NCBI GenBank assembly: GCA_947245585.1
Contig: CAMXPV010000015.1
Location: 1 to 64,000 of the forward strand
DNA length: 64,000 nt
From: an uncultured Lachnospiraceae bacterium
GTDB taxonomy: Bacteria > Bacillota > Clostridia > Lachnospirales > Lachnospiraceae
Direction: 5' to 3'
The position numbers and the translations under genes are program-made. The notes beneath the pieces were generated by a model that saw nothing but the letters and a program-made list of their open reading frames with translations, did not search any database and was not told where the DNA came from. Below are positions 1 to 15,697 of this stretch, in pieces; position 1 is the stretch's first letter, and each line of letters starts with the position of its first letter.

Positions 1-15
1 TGATTTTATTATATC

Positions 16-45
16 AAAAAAAGCCAGCTTTTGCTGACCTTTTTT
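16..45. terminator. Imperfect bidirectional terminator-like hairpin
   Basis: An A-run, an imperfect stem (AAGCCAGC against GCTGACCTT with a TTTT loop) and a T-run lie together. This looks like the end of a transcription unit outside the window, or the upstream border of the TnpB-like locus. The stem contains mismatches, so confidence is low. Confidence 0.35.
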
Positions 46-54
46 GACAGTCTG

Positions 55-77
55 TCGCAGAATACCCAATTCTGCGA
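55..77. repeat. Perfect 9-bp inverted repeat upstream of the TnpB-like gene
   Basis: TCGCAGAAT, a 5-base spacer and ATTCTGCGA form a perfect inverted repeat that ends 18 bases before the GTG start. A TTGACA sequence lies at 44-49, just in front. It could be an operator for the gene, or a remnant of an IS200/IS605-type left-end hairpin. The sequence alone does not decide between these. Confidence 0.6.
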
Positions 78-95
78 AATTATATTTATTAAGAC

Positions 96-1409
96 GTGGG
101 AGCAGAATACAGCGATATGCCGCCAAGCACCATATGTAAGACTATTCGTCAATATAACAGCGAGCCCGTTTCGGAAGCGGATATGAGAAAACTTCAGGAG
201 ATCGCGAAAGACTACGGCACGGTCAAAAACTATGTGTATCAGCGTTATGGCGGAATTGGGGGTTTGCCGAAACTCTATCCCGGTTACACCGTACAGAATG
301 AGATGACGGCAAGCGGTCTGCGGGCACAGCTTGGTCTGCCCTCGGTGTATTTTTATCTGGCAGTTTTTGATGCTCTTGGGGATATCAAGAACCAGTGGAC
401 CCAGGTCAAAAGCAGGATAGAAAAATGTGTTCGGGAAAATGAAAATCTGACACCGGAGGACAGACATTATCTGCGGTTTGTCATGAAGCAGAGCCATTGT
501 TTTGAAGCAATTCTTCTGGGAAAAGAAATGTTGCTTTCCGAGGAATGGGAAAAATCTTTTCAGGAAGTGCGGACGGGAGTGGAGGAAAAACGCCTGAATC
601 AATATTTGCGAAGGCATTTACACAAGCTTCACACCGATACAGTGGATGGATTTGCCGTTTCGGAAAAGGCGTACCGCTATGATGACCATGGAATTTATCT
701 GGCCATCAAGGAGAAAAGAAAGCGGGTTTTCATTCCCCTTACGGATAATAACCGCTATGCAAAACAGCTTTATGTCCGCATTTTTCCGGAGGATGGGAAC
801 ATCGTTATCCATGTGCCGGTAGAGGTAAAAGTCAGACAGAATGAGGATTATCAGAAAGAAGTCGGATTGGCGATGGGAATCCGCGCCATGTTTGTGACGG
901 ACGAAGGCAGTATTTACGGGGAAAAATACAGCGATTATCAGTATGCTCTTTCCGAGCATGTCAGGGAAGGCAACATTCGATATAGAAAAAACAAAGAGAA
1001 AAATCCAGGCAGGAAAAAGTATATGGCCGGCAGGGAAAGACTGGAAGCGGCTCTTCATACCTATATTAATGCGGAAATCAACCGTATGCTGCGGGCGGAA
1101 AAGCCGTGCGTATTGTATCTTCCAAAACTGCCTCAAAGTTCCAAAGCGGGCGTGAATAAAAGGATCAACAGCTCCGTCAGCATGTGGCAGAAGGGATATA
1201 TAAGAGACCGTTTGTTTCAGAAATGCAGAGAGCAGTCTATCGAACTGATCGAGGTAGTAGGGAAAGATATCAGCAACGAGTGCAGTAGCTGCGGCGCGAT
1301 CGGTCAAAAGACAAATGGCATTTTTACTTGTAAGGCTTGTGGGACGAAAATTCCCGAGAGGGAAAACGCTGCAAGGAATGCCTTGAAAAGAGGGCGGATA
1401 CGTTCATAA
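96..1409 (+). CDS. TnpB/Cas12f-like RNA-guided protein with inactivated RuvC site
   Basis: This is a TnpB (IS605 OrfB) family protein of 437 residues. In order it shows an N-terminal wedge-like region, a RuvC-I segment near 256-271, a RuvC-II segment near 338-346, a complete zinc ribbon (Cys396, Cys399, Cys412, Cys415) and a RuvC-III segment ending in NAARNAL. Aligned to the usual TnpB motifs, the catalytic acids are gone: G-I-D-L-G reads G-L-A-M-G (Ala259), the V-E-D-L Glu position is Pro343, and the D-x-N-A-A Asp position is Arg422. The reading frame is otherwise intact. In the family these acids cut DNA, while the rest binds guide RNA and target. I infer a nuclease-dead, RNA-guided DNA binder. 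The start is GTG at 96 or ATG at 117; neither has a strong ribosome site. No TnpA gene is visible in the window. A generic decayed transposase is the alternative. Confidence 0.85.
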   Translation: MGAEYSDMPPSTICKTIRQYNSEPVSEADMRKLQEIAKDYGTVKNYVYQRYGGIGGLPKLYPGYTVQNEMTASGLRAQLGLPSVYFYLAVFDALGDIKNQWTQVKSRIEKCVRENENLTPEDRHYLRFVMKQSHCFEAILLGKEMLLSEEWEKSFQEVRTGVEEKRLNQYLRRHLHKLHTDTVDGFAVSEKAYRYDDHGIYLAIKEKRKRVFIPLTDNNRYAKQLYVRIFPEDGNIVIHVPVEVKVRQNEDYQKEVGLAMGIRAMFVTDEGSIYGEKYSDYQYALSEHVREGNIRYRKNKEKNPGRKKYMAGRERLEAALHTYINAEINRMLRAEKPCVLYLPKLPQSSKAGVNKRINSSVSMWQKGYIRDRLFQKCREQSIELIEVVGKDISNECSSCGAIGQKTNGIFTCKACGTKIPERENAARNALKRGRIRS

Positions 1410-1461
1410 GGAAGGCTTTCACAGATGAATGTTTCTTTCGGGAAGCATTTTACCAAAACCG

Positions 1462-1740
1462 TTTCCGGGAGTAGGACTGTGGGAAAATTCTTTTGATAAA
1501 AACTAGCGTAACGGATTTGCGGTAACGCAAACTGTAACGCCGAACGGCATTAGAAGCCGGCTGCGGCCGGGTATTGGGTATGCCAGGACCCGAGGGAACT
1601 TCCGCAAGGAAGAAGTACCGGGAGCGAAGCGGATTTCCGCATCACCTGAATAGGTGACCAATATGCCATATTAATAAGCCGTGTAATAAAGCGAAATCGA
1701 GCGGGCACGGCGGAGTGGTTGTACCTTGATAATTTCATAT
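1462..1740 (+). ncRNA. Candidate guide (omega-type) RNA downstream of the dead TnpB
   Basis: The non-coding gap 1410-1821 is unusually rich in perfect hairpins in the same direction as the TnpB-like gene. They are TTTGCG-GTAA-CGCAAA (1516-1531), GCC/GGC (1539-1548), CCGG/CCGG (1557-1570), CCCG/CGGG enclosing CTTCC-GCAA-GGAAG (1589-1622), GCGG/CCGC (1629-1640), CACCT-GAAT-AGGTG (1643-1656), AATAT/ATATT (1660-1672) and GCCGTG/CACGGC (1678-1711). Several loops are GNRA-like. TnpB proteins normally use an RNA made from exactly this position, with the scaffold first and the guide at its 3' end. If that holds, the guide begins near 1712-1740. Boundaries are estimates; another structured RNA class cannot be excluded. 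Confidence 0.6.
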
Positions 1741-1760
1741 TTTACATCGGAGCTCTTTAG

Positions 1761-1789
1761 TTTACATTTCATCGATATAATGTTAGTAT
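1761..1789 (+). promoter_or_regulatory. Candidate sigma-A promoter of the AAA/PD-(D/E)XK gene
   Basis: TTTACA at 1761-1766 is followed after 17 bases by TAGTAT at 1784-1789. Additional TATAAT-like hexamers lie at 1776, 1787 and 1800. The region is AT-rich and sits directly before the GGAGGG ribosome site of the next gene. Which -10 is used is not certain. Confidence 0.45.
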
Positions 1790-1821
1790 AATAATACATT
1801 ATAATAGATGGAGGGAACACA

Positions 1822-3414
1822 GTGAAGCGTAGGTTCAATATCAATGGTTCATGTAACTTAAACCGACACTATATGGTAGAGATTGGGGATAGACTGAAAA
1901 AAATAAAAGAGAATTATGTGGATTATGGCAGTTACTTTGTCATAAACAAGGGTCGTCAGTATGGGAAGACCACTACGCTCCATGCATTGGCTGATTATTT
2001 GTCGGAAGACTATCTTGTTTTTTCACTGGATTTTCAGAAAATGCCGGATGAAAAGTTTGAAAGTGGGGAGACATTCTCTCGCGCTTTTGTAGGTATGTTG
2101 TGTGAGTCCCTTCAATATGAAGATGGGGAAGAACAGCAGAAAATGCGGGCAAGGCTCTCTGAGTTTATGACAGTTCATCCGAAAATAGGGATGGATGATC
2201 TGTTTAAGTTTCTGGGCGATATTTGCAGAAAAAATCCGCGCCCTATTGTGTTGATGATTGATGAAGTGGACAGCGCCGGAAACAATCAGGTGTTTGTCCA
2301 GTTTCTTGCCTTGTTAAGAGGCGCCTATCTGGATCGGGATCAGACACCAACCTTCCACTCGGTAATTCTTGCCGGAGTATATAGCATAAAAAATCTGAAA
2401 TTGAAACTCCGTCCCGAATCGGAACATCAATACAATAGTCCATGGAACATTGCGGCAGATTTTGATATTGATATGAGCTTTTCTGCGCGGGAGATCGCAG
2501 GAATGCTTGCCGAGTACGAGACAGACTACCATACGGGGATGGATGTACAGGACGTTGCGGAAGAAATTTACGCATACACTTCGGGTTACCCGGTACTGGT
2601 TTCCATGATCTGTAAACGCATTGACGAAAAGATTATGGGAAACGATGGATTTGAGGATGCGAAGAGAGCATGGTCAAAAGAGGGAATTGAGAAAGCGGTA
2701 GCCATGATATTAAAGGACAGTAATCTTCTGTTTGAGAGCATGGTCAAGCAGCTTGACACATACGAAGATCTCTATAAGATTATGGAGGATATTTTGTACT
2801 GTGGAAAACGGATTCCCTATAGCTTGGAGGAAAAATCCATTAACCTTGGCGTTATGTTTGGCTTCCTGAAAGAAGAGAACGGCCATGTGGCGGTGGCGAA
2901 CCGTCTGTTTGAGATGTGCCTTTTGAATTTGTTTATGGCAAAGGAAGCGATCCGCAGCGATGTCTACGCACAGGGCGGGAGTGACAGGATTGGTTTTATA
3001 AAAAACGATATACTGGATATGGATTTGGTGTTAAAAAAGTTTGTCGAGTATTTCACTGAAATATGCAGCCAGAAGGATGCAAAATTCATTGAAAAGAATG
3101 GAAGAAAATTTTTCCTTCTGTATTTGAAGCCCATTATAAACGGAAGCGGAAATTATTATCTGGAGGCGCAGACAAGGGACGAAAGGCGCACGGACGTGAT
3201 CGTGGACTACCGCGGCGAGCAGTTTATTGTGGAGTTAAAGATATGGCATGGCAATGAGTATAAGGAACGTGGCGAACAGCAGCTTACGGAATACTTGGAC
3301 TACTACCATAAGGATAAGGGATATATGTTGAGCTTTAACTTTAACAAGAATAAGGAAGTGGGCGTGAAAGAAGTCAAAGTCGGGAATAAGACGATTGTGG
3401 AAGCTGTTGTGTGA
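1822..3414 (+). CDS. AAA ATPase with C-terminal PD-(D/E)XK nuclease-like domain
   Basis: A 530-residue protein starting at GTG 1822, chosen for the GGAGGG at 1810-1815. The N-terminal half is an AAA-type ATPase: Walker A GRQYGKT near residue 50 and Walker B VLMIDEVD near 145. The C-terminal part has a PD-(D/E)XK signature near 455-480 (TDVIVDY, then the E-x-K motif in VELKIW, followed by GEQQLTEYL). Proteins of this architecture are abundant and multicopy in gut Firmicutes and Bacteroidetes. Their biological role is not established; nucleic-acid processing or defence is inferred from the domains only. It is codirectional with the dead TnpB and its candidate guide RNA but has its own promoter candidate and terminator. 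Confidence 0.8.
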   Translation: MKRRFNINGSCNLNRHYMVEIGDRLKKIKENYVDYGSYFVINKGRQYGKTTTLHALADYLSEDYLVFSLDFQKMPDEKFESGETFSRAFVGMLCESLQYEDGEEQQKMRARLSEFMTVHPKIGMDDLFKFLGDICRKNPRPIVLMIDEVDSAGNNQVFVQFLALLRGAYLDRDQTPTFHSVILAGVYSIKNLKLKLRPESEHQYNSPWNIAADFDIDMSFSAREIAGMLAEYETDYHTGMDVQDVAEEIYAYTSGYPVLVSMICKRIDEKIMGNDGFEDAKRAWSKEGIEKAVAMILKDSNLLFESMVKQLDTYEDLYKIMEDILYCGKRIPYSLEEKSINLGVMFGFLKEENGHVAVANRLFEMCLLNLFMAKEAIRSDVYAQGGSDRIGFIKNDILDMDLVLKKFVEYFTEICSQKDAKFIEKNGRKFFLLYLKPIINGSGNYYLEAQTRDERRTDVIVDYRGEQFIVELKIWHGNEYKERGEQQLTEYLDYYHKDKGYMLSFNFNKNKEVGVKEVKVGNKTIVEAVV

Positions 3415-3444
3415 GCGGTAAATAAAGAGGATTAGGTTAATAAG

Positions 3445-3490
3445 AGATCTGATGTAAGGTATGAAATTGCTTTATGTCAGATCTTTTTCT
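3445..3490 (+). terminator. Intrinsic terminator after the AAA ATPase gene
   Basis: AGATCTGA and TCAGATCT form a stem with a long loop, followed by TTTTTCT. It ends the ATPase transcription unit. It also argues that the next coding frame starts at 3530 rather than at the ATG at 3461, which sits inside the terminator loop. Confidence 0.7.
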
Positions 3491-3529
3491 ATGTGCGTTA
3501 GCGGAATGGAGCCAACCAGGATTTGTATT

Positions 3530-4868
3530 ATGAAAAAAAAGACATTATTATCCATCTTGGATTCGATGGAAAAAATAAATGATTCTGTCATAAAAAACAT
3601 AGATGCGGGTATGCCGGTGCCTATGGAAACATTGGTGGACTGTCAGGATTCCGCGATTGCGGTAGGTAATGAAATCGAACAGCAATACGGCAATACTGGA
3701 GAAGAGACCGTTCATTTGTTGGAGGCCTACTGCGAAAATTTGTATCAAATGAGCAGCAAATTGGAGGATGTTGCTTCCTGTAGGAAATTGGGAAAAAAGA
3801 TTCAAAAACAGTTGGTACAGATCAGGAACAGCATCAAATACAACCTCCTCGAAGATAAAAAGGAAGTCGTTTTCCTTCCCTACAAGGCTTCCATGTGGGA
3901 CTCCCTGGAGAGTGTATGGCGGGCGGCGGATGTCGATCCGAGCTGCGATGCCTATGTGATCCCGATTCCTTACTTTGACAAGAACCCGGACGGCAGTTTT
4001 CGCGAGGAGCATTATGAGGGGGACTTATATCCGAAGGATGTGCCGGTTACCCGTTATGATGAGTACGATCTGGAAGCACACCACCCGGATGTCATTTACA
4101 TAGTGTAATCACGTGACTAGCGTGCATCCCTATTTCTATTCTAAGAATCTGCGAAATTATACAAATAAATTAGTATATGTATCTTATTTTATATTAGGCG
4201 AAATAGAGCCGGATAATCAGGAGGCCATCGACGGCATGAAGCATTTCTATTTCACGCCGGGAACGATTTATGCAGACCAGGTGGTTGTCCAGTCTGAAAA
4301 CATGCGGCAGATTTATATCAATGAATACCTGAAAGCGGCAAAGGAGATGGGGCTGCCCGGCGAACATGTGGACAGGAAGTTTCTGGAAAAGAAATTTCTG
4401 GGGACAGGGTCGCCGAAGCTTGACAAAGTACAGAATACAAAGAAGGAAGATCTGGAGATACCGGTGGAGTGGCTGAAAATCATCGAGAAGCCGGACGGGA
4501 GCCTAAAGAAGATTGTTTTTTACAATACCAGTGTGAGCGCGCTTTTACAGCACAGCGAGAAGATGCTCAAAAAGATGGAGTCGGTGTTTGGGATATTCAA
4601 GGAAAAGAAAGACGAGGTGGCGTTATTTTGGAGACCACACCCCTTGATTCAGGCGACCATCGAGAGCATGAGGCCACAGCTTTGGGAGGCGTATCAGAAG
4701 ATCAGAGACAGATATATCGAGGAAGGTTGGGGAATCTATGATGATTCTGCGGAGCTAGACCGTGCTGTGGTATTGAGCGACGCGTATTATGGGGATCCCA
4801 GTTCGGTGGTGCAGTTGTGTCGGGAGAAGGGGATGTTGGTGATGGTGCAGAATGTGAATTGCTCATGA
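3530..4868 (+). pseudogene. CDP-glycerol glycerophosphotransferase-like gene, broken by a frameshifting deletion
   Basis: Two adjacent frames together make one protein of a family with CDP-glycerol:polyglycerophosphate glycerophosphotransferase-like C-terminal parts, acting on cell-wall glycopolymers. The first part (3530-4108) has a helical N-terminus and ends in PDVIYI. The second frame resumes with C-N-H-V-T-S-V-H-P around 4104-4130 and continues with FYSKNL, the WRPHP segment and YYGDPSSVV. The two parts meet at a junction where about 17 bases seem to be missing, which gives a TAA at 4106. That missing length is inferred from the expected residues between the segments. The start ATG 3530 is preceded by a weak AGG. 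Translation of the halves as separate peptides is possible but unlikely to be functional. Confidence 0.7.
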
Positions 4869-4929
4869 GTGATATGTGACGTGTTTTTTATATGGAAAAC
4901 AAGCAAAGGTATTAGTGGAGGTACTAAAA

Positions 4930-6486
4930 GTGGAGAGTACTAAGAGTAATATTTTTGAGTATATCGATGAGTTGGCGTGTGATCCAAATAGGAAAGTGGC
5001 GATCTGGGGAGCGGGAGAAACAGCGAAAATTCTTTTTGAATTAACGAATATTACTAAAGTTAATTGGTTGACAGTGATAGATGAAAAAAAAGCAGGTGAG
5101 CATTTTTATGGACATACCATAATTTGTCCTGACGAAGCGAATTTTAGAAGTATTACATCACTTGTCGTTACGCCACTTAAGGCACAGAAAGAGATAAGCG
5201 ATATTTTAAAAAATCAATATGCTTTTCAGGGAGAAATTATAAACATATATGAGAATGATGATGCTCCGTTTATTTATGAACAATCTTGGTTTGCTGAGTA
5301 TATGCAAAAAAGGTATAGAAAAAAACTTGAAATTATAAAAAACAAAGATGTGATTCGTATTGGTTATATTACAAGTCAAAATGAACTTTGGAATTTGTAA
5401 AGTTTTTATGAGGAAATAAAAAGGGATAAGAGATATTATTTTGAAGTAATTGCGCTGCCAAACTTTGAAAATACTCTCGAATCAAAAGAAAAATCCTGTG
5501 ATACCAATTATCAGTTTTTTGAAAGAAATGGCATCAATGTCGTTAGAGGCTATGATTCTTATCACAATCGATTTATCCCAATTGAAGAGTGGAATTACGA
5601 TATTTTGTTTTGGGATCAACCGGGAACGTGGGCAGGTATCAAAAAAGACATACCGATATATGCGTTCATTAAAAAGTTTCTTTTATGCTACGTACCCTAT
5701 GGGTATAAAGTTGCCGACGGACAAAAGGCTCATTATGGTTTGGACTATTATAATCTCTCGTGGAGAATATTTGCCGAAAGTGATTGGCATTATGAGCAGT
5801 TTAAAAAATTAGGGCAAGTAGAAGGTAAAAACGTCGTAGTGACCGGCTTCCCTAAATTAGATAAGTATTTAAAAAATGATAGAGATTATTCAGATTGGAA
5901 ACATGGAAAGAACGCGGAGAAAAGGGTAATCTGGGCATCTCATTGGACGTTTAGGAAGCCGGGGTGGGAGTACTCCACGTTTGACAGTAATTATAAGGAG
6001 TTTTTAAGGTATGCGTCTGCGCATAAGGAAATAGACTGGATTGTAAAGCCGCATCAAAGATTGTATTTTTGGGCTGTTGAAAGTGGATTGATGACAGAAA
6101 AAGAAATGAGGAATTATTTTGAAAGTTGGAATGCTTTAGACAATGCGGTGGTATGTGATGGCGGAAATTATATGGATATGTTTCTGACATCTGATGCGCT
6201 GATTACGGACTGTGGGTCATTTTTGGCGGAATATCTTCCAAGTAAAAAACCTGTTATACATTTGTATAAGGACACATGTAAATACAATGAAATCGGCAAT
6301 ATGATTACACAAACATATTACAGATGCAGGAGTTGGGACGAGATACAAAACACGATCGAGAGAGTCATTATACAGGAAGATGACTATTTGAAAGATCAAA
6401 GGCTGTCAATGTTAAAATACGTTGTGCCGAATCAGGAAGGCGCCGGGAGAGCAATTTTAGAAGAAATCAAGAGGACAGTCGCATAA
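4930..6486 (+). pseudogene. Glycerophosphotransferase-like gene with Rossmann-type N-terminal module, interrupted by in-frame TAA
   Basis: One continuous frame of 519 codons runs from GTG 4930 (GGAGG at 4917-4921) to 6486, with a single TAA at 5398-5400. Residues before and after the stop join smoothly (ELWNL, stop, SFYEEIKRD). The N-terminal module has the nucleotide-binding-like motif VAIWGAGETAKIL. The C-terminal part resembles CDP-glycerol glycerophosphotransferases: TGFPKLDK, VKPHQR, and LITDCGSFLAEYLPSKKPV. The stop is one base from AAA (Lys), so a nonsense mutation is the simplest reading. A sequencing error is possible, but neighbouring genes are damaged too. Confidence 0.75.
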
Positions 6487-6525
6487 AAGAATATGGGATG
6501 AAGAGTAGTATGAGAGGGAAAAGAA

Positions 6526-6990
6526 ATGAGTAAAATGCGGGTATTAATAAATGGGTTTGGCAGAATTGGACGGGCAATTACGCGTATCAATTTGGCGCAC
6601 GAGATATTTGAATTGGCTGCTATAAATGATATTAATCCGGACAATAAAAATATTGCGTATTTATTAAAGTATGACAGTACATTTGGAAGATTGGGAAATG
6701 AGATAAGCAGTGATGAAGAAAATTTATATATAGATGGAAAACCGATCAAATTATATCACAAATCGGCTGCCAAAGAATTGGATTTAGAAAATGTAGATAT
6801 TTTGATTGACTCATCCGGAATAAGGGAGAATATTCTTCAAATTGAAGAAATAGCAGAATCGTTACAGGACAAGCGTTTTATTATTACAAATATTGATTCC
6901 AAAAAGGCAAAGAATATTATTTTCGGGGTTAATCATGAACTGCTGAAAGAAGCTGAGACTACAGTTAGTATTTTTGTCTCCTTTTTATGA
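6526..6990 (+). pseudogene. Glyceraldehyde-3-phosphate dehydrogenase-like fragment, 3' part lost
   Basis: The first 150 residues match a GAPDH-type NAD-binding domain: INGFGRIGRAITR at the start, then INDINPDN, YLLKYDSTFG and IDSSG. It ends at ETTVS, exactly where the family continues into the catalytic S-N-A-S-C-T-T-N segment, and then runs into an unrelated frame. Usual length is about 335 residues, so the catalytic domain is missing. The fragment appears to be the left side of a deletion that joined it to the next gene near 6965-6975. Its position inside a glycan locus suggests a paralogue rather than the glycolytic enzyme. Confidence 0.75.
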
Positions 6991-7783
6991 TGGGGATGAT
7001 CCAGATGTTATTCCGGTTTACGAGTCATCTTTTCAATTTCAGAGTTTCTTTATTCAGGCTTATAAGAGGTTGATGGAAACATCATGTCAATATTTTCTAA
7101 TGGTTGCAGATGATATGATCATAAACCCGGCATACAATGAGTCAAATATTCTTACTTATTTAGGAATGGAAAATAAAAAGGCAGGTATAGACTATTCGCT
7201 TCCATTTAACAGGACAGGTGGTTTTGCATGGAGTCATGGCCGTTATAGCTCACAGCCGTTTTTCTCCAGGGCATCTGAGTGGAGAACGAGCCTTCCAACT
7301 TACGAGGAAGCGTTGAATCTATTTGCGGATTTTTGGGGCGAAAAGTATGCCGAAAAATATGGGAAAAATTTTTATGCGCCAATGATTGGAGAGTCAGAGG
7401 AAGAATTTCAGAAAGAAAAAGAGGATTTTTTGTTGAGAAATAAAGGAGAAGATATTCCATATCCAATGGCGCGCGGCTATTCAGATATTTTGTGTATCCG
7501 ACGTGATGTAGCTCAGATATTATTCCATAGAATGGGTATTTTTTCTGCGATGAATTTATTTGCGGAGTTAGCGATCCCAACCTCGATTGTGCTTACTGTC
7601 CCCAGAAATGAAGTTAGCTTTTTTTCCGGATTGCCGGACCGTTCCCGAAAAGTCATGTGGGATAAGGAAAAAATATCCGAATTTGCAGCGGCATGTAAAT
7701 CTAATTATAAAAACTTAACGGAAATCTGGGAGCGGTCATGGATGTATGCGCATCCGGTTAAGCTTTCAGGTTGGGAGGTCTGA
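6974..7783 (+). pseudogene. 5'-truncated gene of a cell-surface glycan locus, function unknown
   Basis: The frame is open upstream into the GAPDH-like fragment and reads VFLSPFYDGDDPDVIPVYES at its left end, which looks like an internal beta strand and loop rather than a natural N-terminus. No ribosome site precedes the TTG at 6974. About 270 residues remain, including YFLMVADDMIINP, reminiscent of an acidic DD motif of glycosyltransferases, and a long hydrophilic middle. I do not recognise the family with certainty. It ends 6 bases before the next gene, in operon-like spacing. It is probably inactive because its beginning was lost in the deletion. Confidence 0.6.
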
Positions 7784-7789
7784 CAATAC

Positions 7790-8998
7790 ATGAGATACCT
7801 TATTTTAGGAGGCGGGCCGGCGGGGCTGACTATGGCTCATCAGCTGCTAAGAAGAGGAGAGGATTCGTTTCTTGTTTTAGAAGCTGAAGAAGAGGCGGGA
7901 GGATTGTGCCGCAGTAAGCAGGTTGATGGGTATCCGCTAGATATTGGAGGTGGCCATTTTCTTGACGTGAAAAGGCCTAAGGTGAAGGAATTTTTGTTTT
8001 CATTTCTTGGGGAAGAAGAATGGGAATATTTTGAGCGGGACAGCCGCATAGAGATTGAGGGATATACGATTGGGCATCCTTTTGAAGCAAATATTTGGCA
8101 GTTTCCCATAACAGAACAGATTGCATACATTAAGTCGATTGCATATGCAGGCTGTAATACGGGGGAAGCAATGCCTGATGATTTTGTCAGTTGGATCACG
8201 TGGAAACTGGGGAAGCTGATTGCAGAGAACTATATGCTGCCATATAACCGTAAAATGTATGGCAATAATTTAAACATTTTAGGGACGGAGTGGCTAGATA
8301 AACTTCCGAATGTAAGTCTGGATGAAACATTGCGGTCTTGTTTGACACACCATGCCTATGGAACGCAGCCGGGACATGCACAGTTTTTATATCCGAAGCA
8401 TTATGGATACGGAGAAGTCTGGCTGCGGATGGCAGAGGTTTTGGGGGAACATATATTATATAGTCAGCCAGTTAAAAAGATAAATTTTAAAACGAAAACC
8501 GTGGAAACAGAAAATGGGGATAATTACTGTGCGGATCGGATTATTTCAACAATTCCCTAGAATACGTTTACAGAAATTTTAGGCATCCCAAAGGAATTAA
8601 GAGAAATTATTACAGGATTAAAACATACATCAGTTGAAATTCGTTATTTTCCTGAACATTTAGACACAAAGGCGCATTGGATTTATTGTCCTGATGCAAA
8701 ACTTGCATATCACCGTGTTTTAGTCAGACATAATTTTTGCAAAGGGAGAGGATATTGGACAGAAATAAACATGGAACGTGTTCAGAATGGCAATGGAGAT
8801 CAGATGGAACGTTTTATTAATACATACGCCTATCCAATAAATGATATAGGAAAAAATGCAAAAATGAAGAGATTGCTGATGTGGTGTAAAGAAAATGAAG
8901 TATATGGTTTGGGAAGATGGGGAGAACATCAGCATTATAACTCTGATGTTACCGTGGAAAAAGCGATGCAACTAGGAAATATCCTTTGTCAAACGTAG
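7790..8998 (+). pseudogene. UDP-galactopyranose mutase-like FAD protein, interrupted by in-frame TAG
   Basis: The N-terminus has the FAD dinucleotide-binding motif LGGGPAGLTMA, then LEAEEEAGGLCRS and DIGGGHF, typical of the UDP-galactopyranose mutase, protoporphyrinogen oxidase and amine oxidase superfamily. The frame is interrupted by TAG at 8558-8560 after IISTIP and continues without further stops to 8998 (NTFTEILGIP onward). In relatives this position is often Trp (STIPW), and TGG to TAG is a single change. The full frame would be about 402 residues, a normal size for the family. It follows the preceding gene by 6 bases. Likely role before decay: sugar-nucleotide or glycan redox step in surface polymer synthesis. 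Confidence 0.75.
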
Positions 8999-9028
8999 AA
9001 ATTAATTTAATTAGGTGAGGGAAATGAT

Positions 9029-10291
9029 ATGACAATGGTCTCGATCATCATCCCAGTATATAACGCAGAAAAATACATAGAAGAATGCCTGGACAGCCTG
9101 CTTGCCCAGACATATCCGGACTTTGAGATCATCTGTGTGGACGACGGCTCCGAGGACCGCTCTCTGGAAATCCTTCGCAGGTATGAAAACCAGGACGGCA
9201 GGATAACGGTTCTGACCCAGAAAAACCAGTATGCGGGCGTGGCGAGAAATACCGGCATGGAGCGGGCAACGGGGAAATATCTGCTGTTTTTGGATGCGGA
9301 TGATTTTTTCTGTGAGGACATGTTGGAACAGGCGTTGCATGAGGCGGAAAATAAACAAACGGAAATATTAGTGTTTGATGCTTACATATATGATGAAGTG
9401 CGCAAAGAGGTTAAGACAGGATCATGGACGGCCCTTTTAGCAGATCTTTTTGGAGATGGCGTTAAGACGGCAGCCGACGTTGCTGATGTTCTATATCAGT
9501 TTACGACGCCGTCTCCGTGGAACAAGTTGTTTTTGAGAGAGCATGTGGAAAAAAACAAATTACAGTTTCAGGAAATTAAGCGTGCTAACGACCTGTTTTT
9601 CACCTATGCAGCGTTATCGTGTGCAGATCGAATTGGGATATTTAGAAAGAAGCTGTTGTATTACAGAATCGGAAATGCGCAAAGCCTTCAGGGAAGCGTG
9701 GAAGATACGCCGGCTGTGTTTGCGTTGGCAGTATATGCCCTGCAGGATTTTCTGAAAGGCAGGAAACTGTGGGAAACATTTCGGACAGCATTTCAGGAGA
9801 TGGCGGCGGAACTATGCGTGAAGAACCTGAGTAAGATGAAATCCGAAAGGGCGTACCTGTATTTGATGGAAAAGTTGGGGATCGATGTACTGCCCCATCT
9901 GGAAATGGACAGGCAGGACAAGCGGCTAGAGGAATCGGTCAGGAAGAAAGAAAAAATTGTGGTATATGGCGCCGGTATGCTGGCTTCTGTGTTTGTAAGG
10001 ACACTGCTTATAAAATTTGGATATGAGTGCGGCGGGCTGCTGATTGCGGTTAGTTCCAGGGGAAATAATGTTTCGCAGATCTATGGGGTAACGGTGCAGG
10101 AGATGAAAGAAATTCCTGATGGGCAGAGAGGAAATTTGGTGGTGATCGTGGTTTCGGATGTAACGGTGCAGAAGGAGATAGAGGCCGTTTTGCGGACAGG
10201 ATGTTTTACAAATATTTTGAAGCTGGGATTTCAGGAGATGCTTGGCCTGATTGCGTATGGTGTGGAAGCAGGAGCAGAGGCGGCAGGATAG
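9029..10291 (+). CDS. GT2 glycosyltransferase with C-terminal Rossmann-like module
   Basis: A 420-residue protein. Residues 1-100 form a classic GT-A family 2 domain: VSIIIPVYNAEKYIEECLDS, CVDDGSEDRS, then the metal-binding FLDADDFF. Around residues 310-345 a second motif appears, IVVYGAGMLASVFVRTLL, a nucleotide-binding-like module also present in the genes at 4930 and 11373. The start ATG 9029 has GGTGAGG upstream. It is the first intact gene after the damaged block and is followed closely by a Stealth-type gene. It probably transfers an activated sugar onto a surface polysaccharide; the sugar is unknown. Confidence 0.85.
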   Translation: MTMVSIIIPVYNAEKYIEECLDSLLAQTYPDFEIICVDDGSEDRSLEILRRYENQDGRITVLTQKNQYAGVARNTGMERATGKYLLFLDADDFFCEDMLEQALHEAENKQTEILVFDAYIYDEVRKEVKTGSWTALLADLFGDGVKTAADVADVLYQFTTPSPWNKLFLREHVEKNKLQFQEIKRANDLFFTYAALSCADRIGIFRKKLLYYRIGNAQSLQGSVEDTPAVFALAVYALQDFLKGRKLWETFRTAFQEMAAELCVKNLSKMKSERAYLYLMEKLGIDVLPHLEMDRQDKRLEESVRKKEKIVVYGAGMLASVFVRTLLIKFGYECGGLLIAVSSRGNNVSQIYGVTVQEMKEIPDGQRGNLVVIVVSDVTVQKEIEAVLRTGCFTNILKLGFQEMLGLIAYGVEAGAEAAG

Positions 10292-10325
10292 CGTAGGATA
10301 AGGGAAAGCGAGGAAAATTGCAGGG

Positions 10326-11339
10326 ATGAACAGTGACATAGATATTGTCATACCGTGGGTGGACGGTTCCGATTCCGCATGGCGCAGAGAGAAGGACACA
10401 TGGTATCAAAAATTGAACCCGGATCAAAGTTCCAATTCCCATACACGTTATCAGAACTGGGAGAATTTAAAATATTGGTTTCGGGCAGTAGAAAAATTTA
10501 TGCCGTGGTTTCATAAAATATATTTTTTAACCTACGGGCATGTGCCGGATTTTCTGAGAGCAGATGACCCGCGCCTATGTGTGGTGAGGCATGAGGATTT
10601 TATTCCGGCGGAATTTCTTCCGACTTTTCAGGTGTGTGCCATTGAGATGAATCTTCACCGGATTCCGGGATTGGGTGAAAATATTCTGTATTTTAACGAT
10701 GATACGTTCCTGTTGAATTATGTAGGGGAGGATTACTATTTTCAGAATAATACGGTTTGCGATGAAGCGGTGGAGACACCTATCATTCCCCTGCTCTCGG
10801 GCAGCATTGCGAAGTACACGTGGAACATGCGCGCTCTGGATATTTCTATTATAAACAGACACTTTTCAAAAAGGAAGGTGCAGGAAGAGAACTACGATAA
10901 ATGGTTTTGCGCTTCTTACGGGGAATTGATGGAAAGGAACCGCTCTTTGCATTATTGGGATCACTTCGTAGGATTTCGGGATCCGCATCTGCCCAACGCA
11001 TTGAAAAAGGAGACATTTGAAAAGGTCTGGAAGGCAGAGCCGGAAATTTTACGGGAAACATGCAGGGCCAAATTCAGAAATTTTTCATGTGTGAATTACT
11101 GGCTTGCAAGATACTGGCAGCTTTGTGAAGGCAATTTTATTCCGAGGAGAACGCTTGGAAAATCTTATGTGGTAACGGCTGAAAATCATAAGGAAATCGC
11201 TGATGTCATCAGAACGCAGGCGCAGCCCATGATATGTCTGAATGAGGAGTGTTCTGCAGAAGAATTTGTACAGATTAAAGATGGGATCAATGCAGCTCTT
11301 GACAGTCTGCTTCCGGATCGATCATCTTTTGAAAAATAG
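10326..11339 (+). CDS. Stealth-family capsular polysaccharide phosphotransferase
   Basis: 337 residues with the conserved Stealth regions in order: IDIVIPWVDGSDSAW (near 5-20), RYQNWENLKYWFRAVEKF (near 41-60), the HEDFIP segment followed by PTFQVCAIEMNLHRIPGLGE and ILYFNDD (near 90-130), and a C-terminal block with HYWDHFVGFRDPHLPNA. Stealth proteins transfer hexose-1-phosphate units to make phosphodiester-linked surface polymers. The protein is cytoplasmic, without a signal peptide. An AGG lies before ATG 10326. It sits between two glycosyltransferases in one operon, which fits synthesis of a phosphoglycan. Confidence 0.88.
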   Translation: MNSDIDIVIPWVDGSDSAWRREKDTWYQKLNPDQSSNSHTRYQNWENLKYWFRAVEKFMPWFHKIYFLTYGHVPDFLRADDPRLCVVRHEDFIPAEFLPTFQVCAIEMNLHRIPGLGENILYFNDDTFLLNYVGEDYYFQNNTVCDEAVETPIIPLLSGSIAKYTWNMRALDISIINRHFSKRKVQEENYDKWFCASYGELMERNRSLHYWDHFVGFRDPHLPNALKKETFEKVWKAEPEILRETCRAKFRNFSCVNYWLARYWQLCEGNFIPRRTLGKSYVVTAENHKEIADVIRTQAQPMICLNEECSAEEFVQIKDGINAALDSLLPDRSSFEK

Positions 11340-11372
11340 GGAAATGTATAGCCGGAGACAGGAGATATTAAT

Positions 11373-12488
11373 ATGCAGTTAAGGAAAGGTTCCTTTACCG
11401 CAATGGCGGAGGATATTATAAAAGCAGACAGTAAAATTGTCATTTTTGGAGCCGGGGTGATTGGAAGCGTCGTTACGCCTGATATTTTATTGTCAAATGG
11501 CGTTGATTCCCGTGTGGAATGCTATATTGATAACGATCGGACAAGATGGGAAACCGATATGAAAATCGGCGGCAGGACCGTGAAAATATACAGCCCTGAC
11601 CGCTTAAAAGCCATAGGAAGCAATACGGTGATTTTAATAACGATGAGCAGGTATTATGATGCCTATGAGCAGCTACAATTGATGGAATGTACCAGGGAGA
11701 TGGTCTGCTATATGATTCCTATGCTGTGCATCGGAAATTTTTGTGGTAATACGGGAAAGGGAACATTAAAAATGACGGATGAGCCCGAGATCCCAAAAGT
11801 ATTACATTATATGTGGCTGGGTGGGAAGCCGCTGCCGGAGAAGTTAGAAAAATGTGTCGAAAGTTGGAAGACGTTTTGCTCTGATTACGAAATTATCCGG
11901 TGGGATGAAACGAATTATGACGTACATAAAAATGCTTTTATGGCGGAAGCCTATGATCATGGCAGATATGGATTTGTCCCGGATTTTGCAAGGTTGGATA
12001 TTTTGTACCAATACGGCGGAATCTATATGGATACAGACGTAGAAGTGATACGAGGGTTGGATGAATTGTTGTACCAGAAAGCATTTTGCGGGGTAGAAAA
12101 ATGGCAGGTTATCAATTTCGGTGGTTGCTGTGGCGCAGTAAAAGGTCACGCGGGATTAGAACCCTTTTTAGAGAGATGGAGCGGAAGAAAAATTTTAAGA
12201 GAAGACGGCACTTTGGACAGTCTTTCCAGTGGGCTGATCGATACGGAAGTTGCTTTAGAAGCCGGGTATCAGATCAATGGGGAAAACCAAACTGTTTTGG
12301 GAATTAATATTTATACATATGATTATTTTCATCCGTATGACTATATGTCAGGCATGATGCACAAAACCAACCATACATATTCCATCCACCATTTTAATGG
12401 AGGATGGTTAGATGAAAGTGCTTGTGCTAATAACAGGAAAACAGCAGAAATGTATGAGAAACTGGTGCAGTGTGCCATAACAGTATAG
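11373..12488 (+). CDS. DXD-type glycosyltransferase (sugar-binding DXD family) with N-terminal Rossmann-like module
   Basis: 371 residues. The N-terminal 110 residues carry KIVIFGAGVIGSVVT and a following acidic region (YIDNDRTRW), the same kind of module seen in two other proteins of this locus. From about residue 135 comes a Gly_transf_sug-type glycosyltransferase: PKVLHYMWLGGKPLPEK, VPDFARLDILYQYGGIYMDT containing the DTD metal motif, and a C-terminal HHFNGGW. An AGGAG precedes ATG 11373. It is the last gene of the surface glycan cluster. The donor and acceptor are unknown. Confidence 0.82.
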   Translation: MQLRKGSFTAMAEDIIKADSKIVIFGAGVIGSVVTPDILLSNGVDSRVECYIDNDRTRWETDMKIGGRTVKIYSPDRLKAIGSNTVILITMSRYYDAYEQLQLMECTREMVCYMIPMLCIGNFCGNTGKGTLKMTDEPEIPKVLHYMWLGGKPLPEKLEKCVESWKTFCSDYEIIRWDETNYDVHKNAFMAEAYDHGRYGFVPDFARLDILYQYGGIYMDTDVEVIRGLDELLYQKAFCGVEKWQVINFGGCCGAVKGHAGLEPFLERWSGRKILREDGTLDSLSSGLIDTEVALEAGYQINGENQTVLGINIYTYDYFHPYDYMSGMMHKTNHTYSIHHFNGGWLDESACANNRKTAEMYEKLVQCAITV

Positions 12489-12648
12489 GGAGGAAGGCGG
12501 GAGCGACACCTTCCACCATCTTGCAGAAAACTACCTACGCAGAAGAATGTAATAAGTTTTCAAGAAATTGTGGCCATGGACGCTAATCAATGATAAAATA
12601 AAAGCGGAAAGCCACTGATATAGAAAAAGGCTTCGGAATGGAGACAGC

Positions 12649-13695
12649 ATGAAAGCATATAGACTGCATGGAGTGGGAGATCTTCGCTTGGAGGAGGTAT
12701 CCTGTCCGCTGCCAAAATCGGGAGAGGTACTTTTACGGGTAAAGGCTGCGGGGATTTGCGGTTCCGATATACCGCGTATCTATCAGACGGGAACCTATCA
12801 TTTTCCGACGATACCGGGACATGAATTTGCAGGTGTGGTAGAGGAAGTAGGCGAGAACGTGAATGCTGAGTGGAAGGGGAAACGGGTAGGGATTTTTCCG
12901 TTGATTCCCTGTTATACCTGTGGCCCATGTCAGGACGAAAAGTATGAGATGTGCAGAAATTACGGCTATCTGGGGTCGCGTCAGGATGGTGGATTTGCCG
13001 AGTATGTGGCAGTTCCCGTAAAGAATCTGCTTGCGCTGCCTGAGGAGGTGACCTACGAGGAAGCTGCGATGTTGGAGCCTATGGCAGTGGCTGTTCATGC
13101 CATGAGAAAGGCGGCGCCTGCTGACGGGGAGCGTATAGCGATCTGCGGCTTGGGGACGATCGGCCTGTTTTTGCTGATGTTTTTATGGGAAGCAGGACAC
13201 AGAAACATCTATGTTATCGGAAATAAAGAATTTCAGAGACGGATGGCGGATCAGCTCGGTCTGTCGGCAGGTTTCTTTTGCGATAGCAGGAAGCAGGATG
13301 CAGAGACATGGTTGGCGGAGCAGACGGATGGCAAGGGTGTGAATGTATTTTTTGAATGCGTCGGAAAAAACGAGACGGTTGCACAGGCTGTTCGGATGAC
13401 TGTGCCCGGCGGACGGATTATGTTGGTGGGTAATCCGGCCTCGGATATGACTTTTCCCAAGGAAACTTATTGGAAAATTTTGAGAAATCAGCTTACTGTG
13501 TTCGGTACATGGAATTCCTCTTTTACCAACAGAGAGGACGATGACTGGCACTATGTATTAGAACGGTTGAAAGAAAGACGAATTGCACCAACGGAGTTTA
13601 TTACCCATCGACTACCGTTTGAAGAATTGGAAAAGGGCCTTGCGGTGATGCGGGAGAAGAAGGAAGAATATGGAAAAGTGATGGCCGGGAATTGA
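12649..13695 (+). CDS. Zinc-dependent sugar-alcohol dehydrogenase, GatD-like
   Basis: 348 residues of the medium-chain zinc alcohol dehydrogenase family. Catalytic zinc site: ICGSDIPRI and GHEFAGVVEEVG. Structural zinc cysteines are seen in CYTCGPCQDEKYEMC, and the NAD motif is GLGTIGLF. The pattern PGHEFAG, then LGSRQDGGFAEYV, is most like galactitol-1-phosphate 5-dehydrogenase. Such enzymes oxidise a sugar-alcohol phosphate to the ketose phosphate. No PTS or tagatose genes lie near it, so the substrate is inferred. It has its own terminator and may be monocistronic. Ribitol-5-phosphate or sorbitol dehydrogenase are alternatives. Confidence 0.75.
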   Translation: MKAYRLHGVGDLRLEEVSCPLPKSGEVLLRVKAAGICGSDIPRIYQTGTYHFPTIPGHEFAGVVEEVGENVNAEWKGKRVGIFPLIPCYTCGPCQDEKYEMCRNYGYLGSRQDGGFAEYVAVPVKNLLALPEEVTYEEAAMLEPMAVAVHAMRKAAPADGERIAICGLGTIGLFLLMFLWEAGHRNIYVIGNKEFQRRMADQLGLSAGFFCDSRKQDAETWLAEQTDGKGVNVFFECVGKNETVAQAVRMTVPGGRIMLVGNPASDMTFPKETYWKILRNQLTVFGTWNSSFTNREDDDWHYVLERLKERRIAPTEFITHRLPFEELEKGLAVMREKKEEYGKVMAGN

Positions 13696-13712
13696 TCTCC
13701 CGGCCCATTTTG
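13683..13712 (+). terminator. Intrinsic terminator overlapping the dehydrogenase stop
   Basis: GGCCGGGA and TCCCGGCC form a perfect 8-bp stem with a 7-base loop, followed by CATTTT. The stem includes the last codons of the dehydrogenase gene. It separates that gene from the convergent Rpn-like gene. Confidence 0.7.
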
Positions 13713-13726
13713 GCGGCTTAATTATT

Positions 13727-14695
13727 TTAGGTTGTTGATTCTCCCTGTTTTAATTGTTGAATCTCGGCGCGAAGCCGTTCGATGGCTTCCTCTTTTTCGG
13801 CAAGTGTTTTTTGGTAGGCCTGTATATCCTGTTCGTGCTCGATACGATTTTGTTCAATCGTTTTCTGGTAGGCACGAATATCCTCTTCGTATTCGATATG
13901 ATCCTGCTCGATCTTTCTCTCGTAATTGCGCAGATCCTGATAATATTCTTCCCGGTCAAGACAGCGCAGGCGGATTTCTTCCTCAGAGCTGTTGTAGAAT
14001 AAAGCCTTCGCGGCTTCGTATAAAGCCTCATCTTCTTCTGCTGTCATTCTCAGTTCCTCCCATGTTTTTGCTTTCATGAGCCTTGCCCAACTGTCGATGT
14101 GATACTGCCTGTCCTCCTGTGTGGCAAGTTCAATCCTTGTCAGGTCAGCAACATACAAAGTCAGGCTGTCGCTGTAGACATGATGGCTCTTTACGTTGAT
14201 CAGTTTATAAGCGGCATAGAACTCCGGATGTTCCGCAAAGAGGGTATAGTCCAAAAAGCCGATATGGACGGCAGGCTTTGCCTCCGCGTATTCCTGCCCT
14301 CTGTTCAGTTTGTCGTAGGTGCGGCATAAGTACATGACGGAGCGGTCCGGCCAGTTTAAACGGTTTGCCACCTGCATCTCCAGATTAATCCGCGTGCTGT
14401 CGTTTAGAAGCAGATGGATATCTAAGTGGAAGGCCTTGCTGCCGATGGCTTCGCCCAGAAGGATCGGGTTTGTGACTTCCACAGAATGTACCTCCGAGTC
14501 GGCAAGGTGGAGGAGAGAGCAGAGGAGTCCTTTGAGGGCCTTGTTATTTGACTGAAAAACCGCCCGAAACATGTAGTCGTTGGTCAAGCCAAAGGGGATG
14601 GGGCCGGAAGCCGCATCAAAGACCCTGTCGCGGATTGATTCGGAGATTCGTGATTTTTTTTGATTCCTGATTTGACAGTACTCGTTTTTGTTCAT
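13727..14695 (-). CDS. Rpn-family PD-(D/E)XK protein with repetitive coiled-coil tail
   Basis: Rpn / PDDEXK_2 type protein of about 322 residues, often annotated as recombination-promoting nuclease or putative transposase. The start is placed at ATG 14695 (AAGGAAA upstream on the minus strand), because the 60 codons before it have no family match. The motif FGLTNDYMFRAVFQ near the start and HLDIHLLLND followed by NLEMQV are the catalytic-core signatures (D, then E-x-Q). The C-terminal 75 residues are a charged coiled coil with about three imperfect copies of a unit ending EDIRAYQKTIEQNRIE. The family can cut DNA and stimulate recombination, and copy numbers differ among strains. No terminal inverted repeats mark it as a mobile element here. 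Confidence 0.8.
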   Translation of the reverse strand: MNKNEYCQIRNQKKSRISESIRDRVFDAASGPIPFGLTNDYMFRAVFQSNNKALKGLLCSLLHLADSEVHSVEVTNPILLGEAIGSKAFHLDIHLLLNDSTRINLEMQVANRLNWPDRSVMYLCRTYDKLNRGQEYAEAKPAVHIGFLDYTLFAEHPEFYAAYKLINVKSHHVYSDSLTLYVADLTRIELATQEDRQYHIDSWARLMKAKTWEELRMTAEEDEALYEAAKALFYNSSEEEIRLRCLDREEYYQDLRNYERKIEQDHIEYEEDIRAYQKTIEQNRIEHEQDIQAYQKTLAEKEEAIERLRAEIQQLKQGESTT

Positions 14696-15040
14696 AGATG
14701 TGTTTTCCTTTCGTAAGAAGCGGCGGGAAATGCCGCGGGTGATGTAAAATCCAAGAGAGAGGATTTTACGAGTGACAAAAGATAAAGAAATGAAATTTAG
14801 AAGCGGTACAGTCCTTTTGGGAAGCCTTATCGTATTCGCTGTACTAGATATAGCATAAAAGCAAAAGAAAGACAATGGCCTGAGAGAAATTAGTATGTAG
14901 AAAAATAGTGGACGATATATCGTTAATCAGAACAAAAACGCAAGATATAGAACAGAGTAAAAGCAAAGGGACATTTTGCCTCAAGATATGGTTTGTGCAG
15001 TTTTTCCATATATGATATAATAACCGCAACAGAAAAAGCT
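14696..15040. other. Intergenic region between divergent genes, with two perfect hairpins
   Basis: About 345 bases without a convincing gene. Next to the Rpn start are two perfect hairpins, GCGGC/GCCGC (14720-14736) and GTAAAATCC/GGATTTTAC (14744-14769); on the minus strand they would form the 5' leader of the Rpn mRNA. The rest is AT-rich and presumably contains divergent promoters. Confidence 0.45.
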
Positions 15041-15550
15041 TTGGAGGAATGGAACACGGACACACAAAGGCAAAACCACACCATAGATCCTGTGTATGAT
15101 GAGAATTCCAGAATTTTGATTTTGGGCAGCTTTCCTTCCGTCAAGTCGAGGGAACAACGTTTTTTCTACGGACACAAACAAAACCGCTTCTGGCGTGTAT
15201 TGGCGCAGGTGTTTGACTGTGAGGTGCCGGAGAGCGTGGAACAGAAGCGGGAGATGCTTCTGACCCATCATGTGGCGGTGTGGGATGTGATTGCAAGCTG
15301 TGAGATTACGGGTTCCTCAGATGCCAGCATTCATGATGTGGTACCCAATGATTTGTCTCCTATTTTATCTCAGGCAGACATTCGGGCAATTTATACCAAC
15401 GGCGGCAAGGCGCAGGAATTATATCGAAAATATATTTTTCCAACAAATCGGCGGGAGGCCGTTTCCCTGCCCTCTACCAGTCCCGCCAATGCGGGATATT
15501 CGCTTCAAAGGCTTGTGGAGGCGTGGAAGGCGATACGGGATATTTCATAA
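15041..15550 (+). CDS. DNA-deoxyinosine/uracil-mismatch glycosylase, MUG family
   Basis: A protein of about 169 residues of the single-domain hypoxanthine/uracil-DNA glycosylase family. It shows ILILGSFPSVKSRE, then FFYGHKQNRFWRVL, VWDVIASCEITGSSDASI and, near the end, LPSTSPANAGYSLQ. It removes deaminated bases in base-excision repair. The start is unclear: the frame has no ATG before the conserved HTIDPVYDENS segment, so TTG 15041 is taken. An ATG at 15049 with nearby GGAGG is in another frame, which would fit a one-base frameshift near 15065-15075. The leader of the MFS gene begins immediately after its stop. Confidence 0.75.
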   Translation: MEEWNTDTQRQNHTIDPVYDENSRILILGSFPSVKSREQRFFYGHKQNRFWRVLAQVFDCEVPESVEQKREMLLTHHVAVWDVIASCEITGSSDASIHDVVPNDLSPILSQADIRAIYTNGGKAQELYRKYIFPTNRREAVSLPSTSPANAGYSLQRLVEAWKAIRDIS

Positions 15551-15568
15551 ACAGGAGGATACGGAACA

Positions 15569-15607
15569 ATGATGTTGTGCATTGTAAATGCTCCATGCAG
15601 GGCTTGA
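15569..15607 (+). CDS. Leader peptide MMLCIVNAPCRA upstream of the MFS pump
   Basis: A 12-codon open frame with a strong ribosome site (AGGAGG at 15553-15558) and ATG 15569. Its last codons overlap the left arm of a perfect 10-bp hairpin (15591-15600 with 15613-15622). Short peptides placed this way before efflux or methylase genes commonly stall ribosomes in the presence of an antibiotic and open the downstream ribosome site. Function here is inferred from the arrangement only; the first of two adjacent ATGs may or may not be used. Confidence 0.5.
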   Translation: MMLCIVNAPCRA

Positions 15608-15686
15608 GGACACTGCATGGAGGAAAAGTCAGTAAATGACTTGGTCCTCAGGCTTTGCATCCTGATTTAGAATAAAAATCAAAGGA
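15591..15686 (+). promoter_or_regulatory. Nested-hairpin attenuator leader of the MFS gene
   Basis: Four structures can be drawn. CTCCATGCAG/CTGCATGGAG (15591-15600 with 15613-15622) is perfect. AAGTCA/TGACTT (15626-15631 with 15637-15642) is perfect. GCTTGAGGAC (15602-15611) can pair with GTCCTCAGGC (15644-15653), which competes with the first. Finally, CCTGATTT near 15660 can pair with AAATCAAAGG and bury the ribosome site of the MFS gene. Mutually exclusive pairings of this kind suggest translational attenuation. Confidence 0.5.
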
Positions 15687-15697
15687 GCAAAGTAAAA

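Follow-up and report, generated by a model that had tools for sequence, protein, structure and literature searches.

A TnpB-like family that lacks the RuvC triad, with a candidate guide-scaffold RNA, at invertible-promoter surface loci, mostly of Lachnospiraceae

Catalytically dead relatives of the TnpB nuclease can act through a guide, as oppF-TldR does, and the multi-copy capsule loci of Bacteroides combine invertible promoters with the Mpi invertase and the head genes UpxY and UpxZ. In flagellin-remodelling prophages, guide–target pairing has been shown for fliC-TldR (PMC13418256). The nearest described system to the family analysed here is formed by the csrA-TldRs of Oscillibacter and Flavonifractor, which occur in multiple copies per genome behind a hin-type invertase and a short promoter inversion, have csrA and fliC as neighbours and a FliA-dependent promoter, and carry guides that target fliC reading frames (PMC13418256).

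Our family resembles the csrA-TldRs in joining a dead TnpB to an adjacent RNA in gut Clostridia, with an upstream inversion, several copies and surface-structure genes; it differs in its glycan and surface-protein genes, its mostly tyrosine recombinases, its sigma-A-type promoters and the fact that targets were not found. With fliC-TldR and oppF-TldR it shares a dead RuvC domain, a guide-scaffold-type RNA, a non-transposon surface gene and, in one copy (L192), a phage setting, whereas it has other neighbours and an invertible promoter, and our searches found no guide–target pairing. Its likeness to the Bacteroides capsule loci lies in the invertible promoter, the regulatory head gene and the multi-copy surface-polysaccharide loci, the head gene being here a dead TnpB with a scaffold RNA. 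The features that characterize TldRs, namely an inactivated RuvC triad, an adjacent covarying RNA and a stable link to non-transposon genes, are found in this family, and a TldR-like role, which would involve RNA-guided DNA binding and repression, is likely for the dead TnpB (dTnpB); the adjacent RNA is, by its position and by analogy, the putative guide scaffold. The family would then link inversion of DNA with regulation that is RNA-guided (or RNA-anchored), two routes by which bacteria vary their surface.

The window, that is, the whole 64,000-nucleotide stretch analysed, encodes a nuclease-dead TnpB-like protein at 117..1409 on the plus strand, the ATG at 117 being a likelier start than that of the frame at 96-1409 used earlier. 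The window frame comprises 437 codons and has the TnpB fold over its full length. The D/E/D triad of the active TnpB nuclease of IS200/IS605 or IS607 elements is absent from it: at the corresponding positions stand Ala259 (codon 870..872, plus strand) for the expected RuvC-I Asp, Pro343 (1122..1124, plus) for the RuvC-II Glu and Arg422 (1359..1361, plus) for the RuvC-III Asp. The zinc-ribbon cysteines C396, C399, C412 and C415 (1281..1340, plus) are invariant across a 45-row family alignment. A second copy in the same genome (C30:29178-30518) is 46% identical to the window protein. A Cas12f or other type V effector would be accompanied by a CRISPR array; among the 20 of 30 repeat families listed for window positions 1-16000, none consists of near-identical direct repeats at regular spacing, the contig starting just upstream.

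The earlier note had claimed that these three replacements occur in an intact frame, and the alignment confirms it; loss of the triad is moreover a property of the whole clade and is not isolated to the window gene. None of 89 aligned rows, the window among them, has an acid at the first or second position, and at the third none of the 88 rows that are readable has one. The first position holds Ala in 62 rows and Ser in 27; the second Pro (48), Val (34), Ala (4), Ile (2) or Met (1); and the third Lys (63) or Arg (25), with one row truncated, so that it is basic wherever readable. These rows derive from 80 retained of 172 stretches, together with matches from the window's own genome and family; L064, with a stop within its given coordinates, was omitted from alignment A2. 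In a contig scan, 172 stretches of the genome collection encode a relative, and by record title these are mostly Lachnospiraceae, which agrees with the gut Firmicute setting proposed before. A class-wide profile search at E 1e-20 matched 4 of 391 genomes, the own genome included and two of them carrying intact TnpBs, and a family-wide search matched 7 of 200, again including the own genome and one with merely a short fragment. One Sporofaciens genome holds seven near-full-length copies of the dTnpB gene and a short fragment. A more distant homologue, L112 (G205:C1:42813-44114), has a weaker match to the RNA model described below beside it and likewise lacks the triad acids, so the 89 rows do not span the full depth of the dead clade.

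In a tree of 60 rows, a branch with support of 98/95 separates 54 dead rows from six comparator rows; two intact TnpBs of the same class lie nearest to the dead rows, and the root is uncertain because the outgroup branches are long. L214 was omitted from the comparator counts and from the tree, and the comparator TMA L195 is placed with the intact group yet has Gln at the third position. The nearest intact relatives found, L211 and L212, match nearly the entire length of the dead-family profile (E 3e-79 and 7e-76) and keep the triad (GIDKG, VMEQL/VMENL, AD/SD), in contrast to the family, and their match to the scaffold model is not significant. The dead TnpB and its scaffold were apparently recruited one time, in a Lachnospiraceae-centred lineage. 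Among homologues dN/dS has a median of 0.093 and a range of 0.06-0.25 over 37 non-independent pairs at 80-97% identity, and lies at 0.079-0.127 for three pairs involving the window protein; the check proposed earlier thus came out in favour of purifying selection.

Directly 3' of the gene lies a conserved RNA in two parts: a 5' part at 1420..1543 on the plus strand (CACAGATGAATG ... GATAAAAA), kept among close relatives, and an omegaRNA-like scaffold core at 1544..1672, also plus (ACGGCATTAGAAG ... CCAATATGCCATATT), defined by covariance model. This model, R1, scores 137.4 bits at 1544-1672, its sole match in the window at E 0.1, the window being among its 33 sequences. A profile of ten closely related sequences, window included, places the RNA downstream of the dTnpB gene in 88 of 89 loci, and the covariance model recovers it at the one locus missed (L002). 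The RNA alignment, A1, drew 33 sequences from the 70 loci whose core was clean, 19 of the 89 lacking one by pattern; the consensus fold of these 33 cores has 32 pairs, with two-sided changes in 21. In nine genomes every covariance-model match, among them that of the own second copy, adjoins a dTnpB gene, and no orphan scaffold RNAs were found there at E 0.01 among the 150 first-look candidates scored per genome. In Rfam, window positions 1-4000 gave nothing above threshold (Thr_leader was sub-threshold at E 0.59), and because Rfam models gave no such match, the name omegaRNA is given by analogy: the RNA lies where a TnpB omegaRNA would and broadly resembles one.

Some features of individual RNAs deserve mention. 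In several copies (L122, L123, L125, L126 and L133) the last motif of the scaffold, about GTATATGTGCCTTATT, recurs a few tens of bases further on, possibly as a duplicated scaffold end. L211, L212 and L192 had no Rfam match at gathering score, which leaves unsupported the idea that L211 might be an IStron carrying a group I intron. The scaffold model has no significant match in L211 or L212, the one hit, at E 0.5 in L212, lying away from the gene. By eye, L211 (9139-9400) and L212 (about 7090-7350, minus strand) have a common 3' region that ends in GTACATATTTTTAGAACCAG and is followed by unrelated flanks, as would be expected for element ends with guides beyond.

Upstream, most loci of this family are invertible-promoter loci, in which inverted repeats flank a promoter found in both orientations. 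After three loci whose upstream DNA was too short had been set aside, inverted-repeat pairs agreeing in at least 19 of 22 bases were present in 70 of 93. None of the 93 Markov-shuffled sequences had such a pair, nor did any of 75 real windows taken 2.5 kb downstream; at a few loci, L071, L075, L085 and L090 for example, the best pair may be a different repeat. The other 23 have no pair under this rule, although some, such as L011, have one further upstream. Comparison of homologous loci exposes the inversion itself: a 417 bp segment is inverted between L022 and L027 (92% on the minus strand) with colinear flanks, a 160 bp segment between L138 and L140, again with colinear flanks, and a 166 bp segment between L067 and L066. 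A perfect TTGACA-17-TATAAT promoter points towards the gene in 6 loci and away from it in 10; under a looser cut, 70 loci divide into 9 ON, 30 OFF and 31 unclear. In the own second copy (row L002) a perfect promoter faces the gene.

The segment is about 1.1-1.5 kb long in a subset of loci, and in 12 of the 13 long-segment loci with a tyrosine recombinase gene, including all seven clear calls, recombinase strand and promoter direction agree; in L007 they disagree. Among the 89 loci, recombinase genes were of the tyrosine type in 27 and of the serine type in 6, counted in clusters with one member of each scanned. Paralogous copies within one genome have similar switches. For L123 and L125, two copies of one genome, the alignment is confined to -1564 to about +305, a span that runs from just outside the switch to the end of the scaffold, which suggests that switch, gene and RNA may move or convert as a single unit amid unrelated flanks.

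The window itself retains one putative recombination site, TCGCAGAATACCCAATTCTGCGAAA, at 55..79 (no strand assigned), with palindromic arms and an asymmetric core. It equals the gene-proximal site of L011 over 25 bases, the distal site of L011 being its exact reverse complement, and the sites of L012-L018 differ from it by 0-2 bases. Because the window contig (G000:C15) begins 54 bases upstream of this site, inside what relatives have as the invertible segment, it carries that one site only and its promoter direction is unreadable. The contigs of L015 and L016 also begin at this site, and contig starts at a recombination site fit mixed orientations in the sequenced populations, without being proof of them.

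On the other side of the RNA lie surface genes. By our own ORF calling, 223 of 228 genes counted as the next three of at least 120 aa are on the dTnpB strand, and a simple rule, applied without a positive control, found a terminator-like site within 150 nt past the scaffold in 0 of 78 loci. The commonest arrangement among relatives puts a surface gene first after the RNA: a gene of the 'ERYKKKDML' type is first in 44 of 89 loci and present downstream in 55, the one member scanned having no Pfam match. Other scanned neighbours include a cytidylyltransferase fusion, LicD and ATP-grasp proteins, and aminotransferases, epimerases and secreted-looking proteins were recognized by eye. The earlier note suggested a domestication whose neighbours differ from the flagellin and opp genes of known TldRs, and this holds, as surface-glycan and surface-protein genes follow; simple regular expressions, run without a positive control, found a flagellin or csrA motif in 0 of 109 loci. 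That note had missed the informative parts of the locus, namely its scaffold RNA, its invertible promoter and its setting in a surface operon.

In the window the operon looks damaged, as judged from its reading frames, because an ORF for an AAA_35 ATPase with a sub-threshold PD-(D/E)XK tail (1822..3414, plus) intervenes between RNA and surface operon and because the first surface gene is split. The ATPase ORF is perhaps a later insertion. In the C30 copy (L139) a different extra ORF lies between scaffold RNA and first surface gene, and a similar 'TTGATAATTTCATATTTTA' stretch precedes the extra ORF at each of the two own loci, perhaps marking a shared insertion hot spot. The counterpart of the surface gene that most often comes first ('ERYKKKDMLQTVD...', homology by eye) occupies 3461..4868 on the plus strand as two ORFs, 3461-4108 and 4113-4868, an interruption relative to homologues of about 800-860 aa that reflects either decay or assembly error. 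Surface-glycan genes follow at 4876..12488 (plus), with other ORFs and fragments among them: Glyphos_transf (5605-6486, plus), GT2 (9029-10291, plus), Stealth (10326-11339, plus) and Gly_transf_sug/Caps_synth (11373-12488, plus). A 154-aa ORF among them (6526-6990) matches the N-terminal domain of glyceraldehyde-3-phosphate dehydrogenase, and a long ORF on the minus strand (13727-14875) carries C-terminal repeats of the 'EQNRIEHEQDIQAYQKT' type.

Taken together, sequence comparison supports the loss of the triad, purifying selection on the gene, a scaffold RNA, an invertible promoter and a co-directional operon, and these suggest a mechanism in which co-transcription, RNP formation, DNA binding, target identity and sign of regulation are inferred. 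A site-specific recombinase would flip a segment bearing a strong sigma-A-type promoter. In the ON orientation this promoter would transcribe the dTnpB gene, then the scaffold RNA and then the surface genes, and in the opposite orientation all three would be silent. Protein and scaffold would form an RNP that does not cleave DNA. Produced only while the operon that encodes it is ON, this RNP would work in trans at other loci, perhaps by means of a short, seed-length guide. We thus give roughly even chances to the dTnpB and its RNA forming an RNA-guided, TldR-like DNA-binding regulator at the head of phase-variable surface operons. If its RNP does silence other surface loci, this would be an RNA-based way to express only one surface type at any time, and the proposal is testable because several hosts are, by record title, named and deposited strains.

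The segment directly 3' of the scaffold, where a TnpB guide would lie (1673..1692, plus), is variable, and the 20 bases there have no second match in the own genome at up to 3 mismatches for either own copy. In most groups compared this segment is poorly conserved, with the exceptions of L084 and L085, which are identical, L011 and L012, which share 14 bases, and L019 and L021, which are similar with a one-base indel. Genome-wide pattern searches covered four 20-base guides in three genomes and one 14-base string in two. As raw pattern counts, one guide of G201 gave two 3-mismatch matches against one for the reversed-pattern control, one guide of G204 gave one 3-mismatch match against none, and the 14-base string common to L011 and L012 gave one 1-mismatch match in each of two genomes, with none in the control.

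Against the paralogous loci, guides of 21 copies from four genomes showed overall no advantage over guides taken from other sources (own against control means of 11.29 and 11.49, 12.29 and 11.52, 10.50 and 10.90, and 10.00 and 10.53, with 90 bases around each scaffold end masked), and the matches were AT-rich and 6-15 nt long. For surface genes the corresponding means were 10.14 and 9.69, 10.29 and 9.52, 8.00 and 8.91, and 7.33 and 8.98, in a test in which the own side excluded a copy's own locus, controls took all loci and the surroundings of scaffold ends fell outside coverage; the means of G201 and G203, slightly above control but within one SD, were treated as noise. As scaffold ends were masked or uncovered in both matching tests, targets there would be hidden, and all guide searches were blind to guides of about 10 nt. 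Guides of about that length, or targets outside the sequences tested, are possible. Because the usual 3'-guide model found no support and short guides are possible, we hold the guided regulator at even chances and a role in cis, considered next, as possible though rather doubtful. Of the earlier overall interpretation, the triad loss, the selected gene and the separate domestication stand, and the part that made the protein an RNA-guided transcription factor is not borne out to the same degree, guide targets not having been found in our searches.

In such a cis role, dTnpB would bind the scaffold within the operon transcript and control elongation, translation or stability, with no guide-target DNA. 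The position of the scaffold is consistent with this: it sits between the dTnpB gene and genes nearly always on the same strand, 78 loci have no terminator-like site past it under the simple rule, the stretch after the scaffold end is AU-rich, and the next gene starts within 60 nt of that end in 34 of 96 loci (in 12 of the 96 a following gene is absent under the rule used). That the guide-position segment is mostly unconserved, that searches found no targets and that orphan scaffolds are absent in nine genomes point the same way. Other long polysaccharide operons have leader elements or dedicated antiterminators in that place (UpxY, LoaP, EAR). An RNA adjoining the downstream gene is, however, expected anyway from the right end of a TnpB element, a guide of about 10 nt would have gone unnoticed in all the searches made, and characterised dead TnpBs, oppF-TldR among them, work through guides. 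For the fliC and csrA groups this is stated in PMC13418256. The narrower form, in which a guide-independent RNP on the nascent leader, just ahead of the first surface gene, governs how a long surface operon turned on by the invertible promoter is elongated or translated, we regard as a tentative proposal, a little less probable still. Action in cis would put the TnpB/Cas12 lineage to a new purpose, on RNA rather than guided to DNA.

It is improbable, in our view, that what the dTnpB and its RNA control is the recombination switch, for instance by attaching close to its inverted repeats and biasing or blocking inversion so that one surface operon is locked. The gene does adjoin a switch in 70 of 93 loci, and the switches of paralogous copies in one genome are alike; a guide excess is nevertheless absent in the switch region (own means 8.3-9.3, control means 8.3-9.0), and invertible promoters without TnpB are common.

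More improbable again is a relic, a once-mobile TnpB element that was inactivated and now hitch-hikes with recombining surface cassettes. The confined alignment of L123 with L125 and the interrupted first surface gene of the window would suit such a history, but selection is evident in the low median dN/dS, in the replacement of the same residues throughout the 89 rows, where all 88 that are readable at the third position have Lys or Arg, and in RNA helices maintained by covariation. Finally, a nuclease still active through a rearranged site is hardly credible: such sites reportedly exist in TnpBs (Altae-Tran 2023), and E69, D217, E335 and E379 are invariant in the 45-row alignment, but the triad is non-acidic in all readable rows, always basic at the third position, and D217 and E335 also occur, by eye, in the intact L211 and L212 and so are not new replacement acids, E379 being unaccounted for. 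The active-site check proposed earlier thus found the acids absent in register, with a site elsewhere in the fold kept as this last rival.

One copy of the family, L192, lies on a 41.5 kb IMG/VR contig that carries a TerL match, an integrase, a holin and an endolysin, then a DNA invertase; this recombinase scores 47 bits against the Mpi model, whose cut-off is 272. By eye, a palindromic repeat pair surrounds a TTGACA...TATAGT promoter upstream of the dTnpB gene and facing it. The protein is 46% identical and has N, P and K at the three triad positions, and the covariance model places the scaffold RNA beside its gene. The module parallels the prophage fliC-TldR, and 20 nt past the scaffold begins a gene of the common first type, followed by one of the cytidylyltransferase type.
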